Shown here piece by piece: positions 10,066 to 62,262 of a DNA stretch of 64,000 nucleotides. The translations under genes and the position numbers were made by a program. The notes beneath the pieces were generated by a model. The model did not search any database and was not told the origin of the DNA. It saw only the letters and a list, made by a program, of their open reading frames with translations. Where the stretch lies: positions 62,001-126,000 of the forward strand of contig VBFY01000063.1 of assembly GCA_005889405.1 (NCBI GenBank), written 5' to 3'. The DNA comes from Chloroflexota bacterium. Lineage in GTDB: Bacteria; Chloroflexota; Limnocylindria; P2-11E. Within the stretch, counting starts at the first letter, position 1. The number at the start of each line of letters is the position of its first letter.

Positions 10066-10343
10066 TCCCTGGTAGCTCAGTGGTAGAGCGAGCGGCTCCG
10101 TGGTCAAGGGCAGCCCTTTGGGGAAACTCAGGGGTGTTACTGGGTGAATTGCGGGGAACCTACGGCGTGTTGTCGCCACGGCAATCCGCAGCCAAGCCCG
10201 GACGAAGGTCTGGGAAGGTTCAGAGACTATGCGCCCGGCGCCTAAGGCCTACAGGGCTATGGCGAAGAGATAGTCCACGCCCGCGGGAAACCGCGGGGTT
10301 CTGTGTAACCGCCAGGTCGGAGGTTCGAATCCTCCCCAGGGAG
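10066..10343 (+). tRNA. tRNA-Thr(UGU) interrupted by a group I intron
   Basis: Exon 1 is 10066-10097 and exon 2 is 10304-10343; together they make a 72-nt tRNA. Acceptor stem TCCCTGG pairs with CCAGGGA, the D arm is GCTC-AGTGGTA-GAGC, and the T arm is GGAGG-TTCGAAT-CCTCC with a 5-nt variable loop. The joined anticodon loop reads CT-TGT-AA, giving anticodon UGU (Thr). Exon 1 ends in U33, as group I splicing requires. The anticodon stem has one A-C mismatch at its base. No 3' CCA is encoded. Identity rests on the anticodon; splicing is inferred from the intron structure. Confidence 0.9.
10098..10303 (+). ncRNA. group I self-splicing intron in the tRNA anticodon loop
   Basis: The 206-nt insert has the group I core in order. 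P1 pairs exon GGCT with intron GGTC, with U-G at the splice site (10094-10105). P2 is AAGGG/CCCTT (10106-10118). P4 is TTGCGG/CCGCAG (10149-10154 with 10186-10191), followed by the conserved GCAGCCAAGCCC. P7 is GACTAT/ATAGTC (10225-10230 with 10270-10275), inside the conserved TTCAGAGACTA and GAAGAGATAGTCC. P9 is CCCGCGG-GAAA-CCGCGGG (10280-10297). The intron ends in G at 10303. It contains no ORF. The compact form resembles the tRNA-borne IC3 class, though the subclass is inference. Confidence 0.92.
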
Positions 10344-10400: not shown

Positions 10401-10452
10401 GCTTAGCCAAGCCGGAGAGTTGACGGCTTAGCCAATTAGAACTAATGTTCTA
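10401..10452. repeat. short direct and inverted repeats between the tRNA and the HNH gene
   Basis: GCTTAGCCAA occurs at 10401-10410 and again at 10426-10435, 25 bases apart. It is followed by a perfect inverted repeat TAGAAC-TAAT-GTTCTA (10437-10452) that ends just before the GTG of the HNH gene. These may be regulatory or traces of insertion; no function is established. Confidence 0.5.
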
Positions 10453-10454
10453 GC

Positions 10455-11375
10455 GTGCTGCTGATCTGTGAAACGTGCGGGAAATCGTTCTCAGATCGGC
10501 CGACCATCTTCGGGAAAGAGCGCCATCTCCACGGTCGAAAGCAGTGTCTGGAGTGTCTGCCATTCCGACCGCGTCACAGCCCGAGCTTCGTGGCGGCACG
10601 TCAGTCAAGGCAGCTTCGCTGCGAGGCTTGCGGAAGGCTCTTCGCGGCCAAACAGATGATCGACGGCAAGGTCCGAAGTCTGTACCGACGACGGTTCTGC
10701 CTCAGTTGCTCGCCGTTCGGGATCCACAACACTTCGGGCCGACCACCGGGCGATCTCCGTGCTGACGAGCTGCTCGAACATCGCCGGAAACGTCGCAACG
10801 CCAAGACATACCGGTACTTGAAGAAGCGTCGTCGACAGTTGAAGGCGCAGCTCGTCGCGATTCGCGGAGGTCAATGTTCCGGCTGCAGTTATTCCGGCCC
10901 GGCGGCGGCGTTCGATTTCCATCATCGCGATCCGACCTCCAAGCGGTTCGCGATCGGCACCTTCAACGGCACGTGGAAGGCGCTGTGGGCTGAAGCTGAA
11001 AAGTGCGACATGCTTTGCGCGAACTGTCACCGGGTTCACCACGCCGCAGAGGACCTCAAGGCAAAAGGCGGCGCGGTGGTGGACTACCGTCGCCGATCAA
11101 AGGTCCGCGCTGTTGACTACATGGGCGGTCGTTGCGCGGGCTGCGAGCGGACTGGTCCACCAGCCCTGTTCGACTTCCATCACATAGACGCAAAGGACAA
11201 AGGTTTCGGGATCGGCCAAGACGGTATCCCACGGAGCTGGGAGAAGATCGTCGCCGAGCTCGAGAAATGCGTGATGCTCTGTGCGAACTGCCATCGCGAG
11301 GTACACGCTGGCGCTCGCGAAATTCGACGCACGCTCCTCGGCCTGGCTGCAGAAGCTGCGAGGTACGCCGCCTAG
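10455..11375 (+). CDS. double HNH endonuclease with N-terminal zinc ribbons
   Basis: The 306-residue protein has two N-terminal CxxC...CxxC zinc-ribbon units (CETCGKSF...CLEC and CEACGRLF...CLSC), then a basic linker. Two homologous HNH/His-Me finger domains follow, at about 135-210 and 220-290: CSGCSYSGPAAAFDFHHRDP with CDMLCANCHRVHH, and CAGCERTGPPALFDFHHIDA with CVMLCANCHREVH. HNH proteins are metal-dependent nucleases common among homing and restriction enzymes. It begins 112 bases after the intron-containing tRNA, so it may have mobilised the intron, but it is free-standing rather than intron-encoded. The GTG start lacks a clear ribosome site. Confidence 0.85.
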   Translation: MLLICETCGKSFSDRPTIFGKERHLHGRKQCLECLPFRPRHSPSFVAARQSRQLRCEACGRLFAAKQMIDGKVRSLYRRRFCLSCSPFGIHNTSGRPPGDLRADELLEHRRKRRNAKTYRYLKKRRRQLKAQLVAIRGGQCSGCSYSGPAAAFDFHHRDPTSKRFAIGTFNGTWKALWAEAEKCDMLCANCHRVHHAAEDLKAKGGAVVDYRRRSKVRAVDYMGGRCAGCERTGPPALFDFHHIDAKDKGFGIGQDGIPRSWEKIVAELEKCVMLCANCHREVHAGAREIRRTLLGLAAEAARYAA

Positions 11376-61318: not shown

Positions 61319-62262
61319 TGGCCGAGCTCGCGCCGATCGTCTTCGAGATGCCGGGCGAGGTGGAGCGTCCGCGCTCGCGCGGGCGCGGCGCGTCGAATAC
61401 CGCCGTGCCGATCGATCGCTCGCGGCCCGAGTGGCTCAAGGTCCGCCTGCCGACCGGGCCGACGTACGAGAACCTGCGACGTCTCATGCGCAGCAAGGAG
61501 CTGCACACCGTCTGCGAGGAAGCGCACTGCCCGAACATGGCCGAGTGCTGGGGCGCGGGCACGGCCACCTTCATGATCCTCGGCGACACCTGCACCCGGT
61601 CTTGCGGATTCTGCGCGGTGAAGACAGGGCGGCCCGGCGTCGTGGACGTCGACGAGCCGCAGCGCGTCGGCGAGGCCGTCGCGCAGATGGCCCTGGGCCA
61701 CGCGGTCGTGACGAGCGTGAACCGCGACGAGCTGCCGGATGGCGGCGCCGAGATCTTCGCCGAGACGATCCGGGAGATCCGTCGTCAATCGCCGTCGACG
61801 ACCGTCGAGGTGTTGATTCCGGATTTCGTGGGCCGACCCGAATCGTTGGACGCGGTGCTCGCCGCGCGACCCGAGATCCTGAACCACAACGTCGAAACGG
61901 TTCCGCGTCTGTATCCGCGCGTTCGTCCACAGGCGCGGTACGAGCGGTCACTCGAGGTGCTGCGCCGCACGAAGCAGCGCGCGCCCGATCTCGTGTGCAA
62001 GAGCGGGATCATGGTCGGGCTGGGCGAAACGCGCGATGAGGTCGTCGCGACGATGCGCGACATCGCGTCGCAAGGGACCGACATCCTCACCGTCGGGCAG
62101 TATCTGCGGCCATCGCCGGTGCATCTGCCGATCGAGCGGTACTGGACGCCGTCAGAGTTCGACGAGCTGCGCGATACCGGCATGACGATGGGCTTCCGGC
62201 ACGTCGAGGCGGGTCCACTCGTGCGCTCCTCTTATCACGCCGAGCGTCATGTCCGACGCTAG
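61318..62262 (+). CDS. lipA: lipoyl synthase
   Basis: The GTG at 61318 overlaps the E2 stop. The 314-residue radical SAM enzyme has the auxiliary cluster motif [12 protein letters not shown] and the SAM cluster motif [15 protein letters not shown], followed by [20 protein letters not shown] and [20 protein letters not shown]. It inserts sulphur at C6 and C8 of octanoyl groups on E2 proteins, forming lipoyl cofactor. Its operon position serves the E2 encoded directly upstream. Confidence 0.97.

Follow-up and report, generated by a model that had tools for sequence, protein, structure and literature searches.

According to reviews, the group I introns of bacterial tRNA genes lie mostly between nucleotides 37 and 38, in tRNAs other than tRNA-Asn (PMC4033280, PMC8450103). 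The intron described here shares with those in the anticodon loops of tRNA-Leu(UAA), tRNA-fMet, tRNA-Ile(CAU), and tRNA-Arg(CCU) a small RF00028 ribozyme that lacks an open reading frame, a U.G pair at the 5′ splice site, and an omega-G at the 3′ splice site. However, it differs from them in its host, tRNA-Asn(GUU), in its position inside the anticodon (35/36), and in the presence of a second insert of 4 to 5 nt that shares J7/9 with it. In trans excision-splicing, the segment that is removed must end in G. In the laboratory, redesigned group I ribozymes cut segments of 1 to 28 nt from RNAs by means of P1, P9.0, and P10, and inside E. coli cells such excision has been obtained for single nucleotides as well (PMC4094466, PMC6155759). 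The present locus resembles these engineered Pneumocystis, Tetrahymena, and Candida ribozymes (Testa laboratory) in that a short segment would be removed by P1- and P9.0-type recognition. Whereas those ribozymes are engineered and act in trans, the presumed excision here would be natural and in cis, on the ribozyme's own host tRNA, with no evident P10. The single-base exon of placozoan cox1 is likewise a very small exon set off by group I introns (PMC5436844), but it is flanked by two full group I introns, whereas here one ribozyme seems to serve both introns, one of which is just 4 to 5 nt long. A literature search found neither a bacterial tRNA-Asn group I intron nor a natural case of excision-splicing.

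The window analyzed here is a stretch of 64,000 nt (positions 62,001 to 126,000, forward strand, of contig VBFY01000063.1) from Chloroflexota bacterium assembly GCA_005889405.1 (GTDB lineage Bacteria; Chloroflexota; Limnocylindria; P2-11E). The host genome (G000) is a metagenome-assembled genome (MAG) of 3.05 Mb in 114 contigs that is 96% complete; related records are titled Chloroflexi bacterium and are chiefly soil and groundwater MAGs. The covariance model RF00028 matches positions 10086 to 10297 over the full model, including the whole core (77.3 bits; E value, 6.9e-18; model positions 1 to 253). This is the sole Rfam family over threshold within the 64-kb window, and the match is the only group I intron in the whole genome. 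ARAGORN missed the interrupted tRNA at 10066 to 10343. The search with the Rfam group I model that accompanied the original prediction as a proposed check was therefore positive, which upholds the prediction of a group I intron in a tRNA anticodon loop; the P1, P2, P4, P7, and P9 pairings and the core strings that it quoted are also present. By these sequence features, the intron is real and of the self-splicing type. The parts of the interrupted gene are as follows.

10066 to 10097, + strand: tRNA-Asn exon 1, nucleotides 1 to 33, ending in GCGGCU (U33); the acceptor-, D-, and anticodon-stem halves pair with exon 2, and the acceptor stem covaries across seven loci.
10098 to 10102, + strand: mini-insert CCGUG (CCGTG in the DNA) between U33 and G34, a proposed mini-intron that would be excised with its last G as its own omega-G.
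10103 to 10104, + strand: two-base exon GU, anticodon positions 34 and 35, invariant in nine of nine insert-type loci and needed for GUU.
10105 to 10305, + strand: group I intron of 201 nt between U35 and U36, ending in omega-G 10305, as placed by RF00028, comparison with loci L039 to L042, and P9.0 covariation.
10094 to 10115, + strand: P1 region, with the internal guide sequence (IGS) GGGCAGCC at 10108 to 10115 and two registers.
10277 to 10279, + strand: J7/9 triplet ACG, which pairs with CGU at 10099 to 10101 or, alternatively, with UGU at 10302 to 10304 (P9.0).
10306 to 10343, + strand: tRNA-Asn exon 2, nucleotides 36 to 73 (U36 through A72 and G73); CCA is not encoded.

Judged from its exons, the interrupted gene encodes tRNA-Asn(GUU), and no other gene for this tRNA was detected in the genome. 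The exons are Asn-like, with U1-A72, G73, and a T arm like that of the relatives' tRNA-Asn, and they match both interrupted and intact tRNA-Asn genes of these relatives. All 40 tRNA matches in the host genome were read; they include intact Thr(UGU), Thr(CGU), Thr(GGU), and Arg(CCU) genes and no uninterrupted Asn(GUU), and a laxer search added no Asn. A BLAST search of the same genome with a tRNA-Asn query returned only the two exons of the interrupted locus and a Lys tRNA. One other tRNA (L032, positions 59 to 132; contig C45) is tentatively read as Leu(UAA), without a long variable arm and with C at position 33. The original prediction was right in calling the host unusual and mistaken in naming it tRNA-Thr(UGU). 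The second, intact tRNA-Thr(UGU) gene (locus L008) refutes the Thr reading; decay of the interrupted copy, which the original prediction had tied to such a gene, is not shown by it.

A pattern consisting of TGTTRA and the T arm has exact matches in 11 family members (G001, G002, G003, G006, G008, G009, G010, G013, G015, G021, and G022) and none in G000, G004, G011, G016, G017, G018, and G020, the seven genomes whose insert-type locus is complete. In these seven, neither BLAST nor two patterns nor the tRNA model detected a separate tRNA-Asn gene, whether intact or half. They are 96, 81, 95, 91, 90, 87, and 90% complete, respectively, and if completeness is taken as the chance of seeing a gene, the probability that an intact Asn gene is absent from all seven by accident is near 4e-8. 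Thus, the interrupted gene has to make tRNA-Asn.

The splice boundaries are indicated by four relatives from the same taxonomic order (L039, L040, L041, and L042; hereafter, plain loci), in which the exons read CUGU and UAA at the junction, the intron lies between U35 and U36, and there is no insert. In these loci, the IGS sequence GCAG pairs with CUGU, placing a U.G pair at the splice site, and once the intron alone is removed, ARAGORN reads tRNA-Asn(gtt) with loop CUGUUAA in four of four. The insert-type 3′ exon is identical to the plain type (UAACCGC), with an invariant G directly before it. The original prediction had placed the 3′ splice site after G10303; this position is A in four of seven homologous loci, whereas G10305, just 5′ of UAACC, does not vary among the 11 loci that have a 3′ exon. 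The site that would yield UGU is therefore not conserved, which speaks against the predicted splicing to a normal tRNA-Thr. Likewise, the single 206-nt intron inserted after U33 gives way to two elements, a 201-nt intron at U35/U36 and a separate 5-nt CCGTG insert at 33/34 (10098 to 10102) that had gone unrecognized. The two-base exon between them makes up two thirds of the anticodon. When both inserts are removed, on the assumption that the mini-insert is excised, ARAGORN reads tRNA-Asn(gtt) in seven of seven complete insert-type loci. Products of a single removal were rejected, as they gave Thr, Arg, a stop-type loop, or no readable anticodon; the Thr(UGU), Arg(CCU), 5-nt-loop, and insert-retained products were each built and read, with a wrong anticodon or none.

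The insert subtype is found in nine Chloroflexota MAGs, with C(C)RYG present in nine loci and missing from the four sister introns. Insert-type exon 1 has the form GGCU-C(C)RYG-GU-NAA-GGGCAGCC, that is, with 4 to 5 extra bases between U33 and G34 compared with L042 (GGCUGU). The insert is CCGTG in G000 and G004, CGTG in G011, CACG in G017, and CATG in G016, G018, G020, G023, and G025. U33, which forms the U.G pair of P1, and the terminal G of the insert are invariant in all nine insert-type loci, as is the GU that follows the insert; the base after GU may be C, U, or A. In G023 and G025 (MAGs 80 to 82% complete), the 3′ half of the tRNA has been lost through independent deletions (L052 and L053) that kept the HNH promoter region, and no other Asn gene was found in either.

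Pairing between the CRY of the insert and J7/9, which in relatives is GUG or AUG, holds in 21 of 21 cells (seven of seven loci), with two-sided changes at two of the three pairs; the combinations are CGU:ACG, CAC:GUG, CAU:GUG, and CAU:AUG. When the alignment is slid by 1 to 3 columns, at most 52% of the cells are paired. P9.0, formed by J7/9 and the triplet before the real omega-G, covaries as well (UGU:ACG, CAU:GUG, and UAC:GUG), with one mismatch (CAC:AUG). The two partners of J7/9 differ in sequence, e.g., CAU versus UAC in G016, and therefore neither was simply copied from the other. A full scan of the alignment, with 38,781 triplet pairings, left just eight that were paired in seven of seven loci and showed two or more compensatory pairs. 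Three of these are registers of the acceptor stem, three belong to one intron stem, and two are registers of insert:J7/9, the sole pairing outside known stems. The sample consists of seven complete, mutually related loci, and column shuffles reached the observed score in 15 of 500 cases. L044 and L045 cluster together (90/96) in a tree from which the tested columns were left out, yet they differ coordinately at the insert, at J7/9, and at the 3′ end. The final G of the insert is also able to pair with C10276. Overall, the mini-insert resembles a further 3′ splice site, or a second intron, for the same ribozyme.

The P1 region offers a register for each site. Register b (GCU.C/GGGC) sets U33.G, which corresponds to the 5′ site of the mini-insert, and register a (GGCUGU/GCAGCC), available after removal of the insert, sets U35.G, the 5′ site of the main intron. 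The GG at 10108 to 10109 is invariant in the nine insert-type loci, versus UA, CG, UG, or AU in the four plain loci. Unconstrained folding of P1 before removal gives GC.GCUC/GGGC.GC with U33.G in four of five loci and a mixed fold in the window locus (L001), which has an extra C (5-nt insert); after removal, it gives register a with U35.G. Inspection of the locus found no convincing P10 for either splicing step. A P10 between UAACC and GGUNA was dropped, as it would consume the microexon itself. Splicing does not strictly depend on a P10 (PMC7877785).

What can be read directly from the sequences is the host, the places of the two insertions, the lack of another Asn gene, the pairings, and their covariation; removal of the insert by the ribozyme and the order of the steps are what we infer from them. 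Removal is called for by the need for tRNA-Asn and has the support of the covariation. It is distinctly likely that the ribozyme excises the insert from U33/G34 and itself from U35/U36 of the only detectable tRNA-Asn(GUU). Two successive reactions by one ribozyme are proposed because the P1 and P9.0 elements are present in cis and a P10 is not an absolute requirement. In the first, the IGS would pair as GCU.C/GGGC and direct cleavage after U33; the CGU of the insert would pair with J7/9 and its final G would replace omega-G, so that U33 becomes ligated to G34 and the insert is set free. The extra C of the 5-nt insert in the window would have to be accommodated. In the second, GGCUGU would pair perfectly with GCAGCC (U35.G), as at the usual 5′ site, and J7/9 would pair with the UGU before omega-G 10305, joining U35 to U36. 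The predicted product is a 72-nt tRNA-Asn with loop CUGUUAA. The reverse order is conceivable, with the freed intron removing the insert in trans. That a single natural ribozyme splices its own pre-tRNA twice in succession, with J7/9 used both times and with IGS registers that overlap, and stitches a two-base exon into the anticodon of an essential tRNA, is reasonably probable. The insert may have originated by the reverse reaction, trans insertion-splicing.

Three rival readings of the locus were weighed. GGCU and GU are able to pair with GCAGCC around a bulge, so the main intron might splice with P1 in a bulged form (GGCU[insert]GU/GCAGCC), after which protein enzymes would remove the insert or an 11-nt anticodon loop would retain it; the insert could also act as a regulatory switch that competes with P9.0. 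However, a loop of 11 nt should not decode, and no tRNA splicing endonuclease is known from bacteria. Furthermore, the terminal G of the insert, the preceding U.G pair, and the covariation with J7/9 are what a group I splice site requires, and the GG of register b is conserved solely where the insert is present. This alternative therefore appears unlikely, although it is the least improbable of those considered.

We regard it as more doubtful still that the tRNA-Asn gene is decaying, with the insert as junk and a functional tRNA-Asn elsewhere that escaped detection. The loss of the 3′ half in two relatives (L052 and L053) and the incompleteness of the MAGs are compatible with decay, but the acceptor stem, the intron stems, P9.0, and insert:J7/9 all stay paired through compensatory changes, and the searches of the seven genomes recovered no intact Asn gene. 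A single 206-nt group I intron after U33 of a tRNA-Thr(UGU) is very improbable. Within the window alone, G10303 followed by UGUAA does give a legal Thr loop, and P1 register b would supply a canonical 5′ site through its U33.G pair; against this, G10303 is replaced by A in four of seven relatives, P9.0 covariation puts omega-G at 10305, the genome holds three intact Thr genes and zero Asn genes, and the body of the tRNA is Asn-like (U1-A72 and G73). The reading of two successive excisions by one ribozyme would, if true, mean that a reaction known only from engineered ribozymes serves in nature for making an essential tRNA and that a single active site handles introns of 4 to 5 and about 200 nt. 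It would also illustrate how a self-splicing RNA can start to act on introns beyond itself, as is usually assumed to have happened when spliceosome-like systems arose, and would do so in a setting small enough to be tested in one tube; it also accounts for the apparently missing tRNA-Asn across a whole bacterial lineage.

Downstream of the tRNA lie two further features.

10439 to 10450, + strand: LexA-like palindrome GAACTAATGTTC (GAAC-N4-GTTC) upstream of the HNH gene, a putative LexA binding site.
10455 to 11375, + strand: free-standing HNH endonuclease gene (306 aa), with two HNH-like modules, N-terminal CxxC motifs, and a match to Pfam PF01844 at its cut-off.

The HNH gene starts 112 nt after the tRNA, and almost every tRNA-Asn gene that carries the intron is followed by a homologue at a distance of 40 to 130 nt. 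Where the HNH gene follows the tRNA, GAAC-N4-GTTC is nearly always present at a similar place, generally 15 to 30 nt before the HNH start, and the gene is perhaps under SOS control via this LexA-like box. Like the homing endonuclease genes of group I introns, the HNH gene is tightly linked to the intron; in contrast to them, in these Chloroflexota it follows the tRNA as a gene of its own behind a LexA-like box, and it also occurs beside some intron-less tRNA-Asn genes. It adjoins intact intron-less tRNA-Asn genes in G002, G003, G008, G013, and G022, lying downstream in L139, L136, and L125 and upstream on the opposite strand in L131 and L128. On a Patescibacteria contig (L160, positions 1 to 330), the C terminus of a related HNH protein runs into the tRNA-Asn intron from upstream of the IGS; the contig end truncates this locus, removing exon 1. 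The HNH protein probably serves the intron as a homing endonuclease whose gene has become free-standing.

Scans covered 400 genomes of the phylum and, by exact pattern, 177 genomes of the class, IMG/VR, and 84,980 GTDB species contigs. In these, the tRNA-Asn intron is confined to the family of the window and one sister genome, a Patescibacteria contig, and an Acidobacteria-labelled contig, and the insert was seen solely in three genera of the window's family. The intron of the Acidobacteria-labelled contig (L166) is closely like that of the Chloroflexota locus L041, possibly reflecting a binning error. The readable group I introns of other Chloroflexota are in 23S rRNA, nrd-like genes, and fMet, Leu, and Met tRNAs without the insert; those of the fMet, Met, or Leu type are at L202, L205 to L207, L214 to L216, L218, and L219. 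Within the same family, further group I introns occur in 23S rRNA-like contexts (L047, L050, L051, and L054); one contig of G003 holds two or more of them. We also found, in G006, two tRNA-Asn 3′ halves 2.7 kb apart (L147; contig C68); the 5′ part at L147 is not tRNA-like, and the arrangement resembles an integration site.
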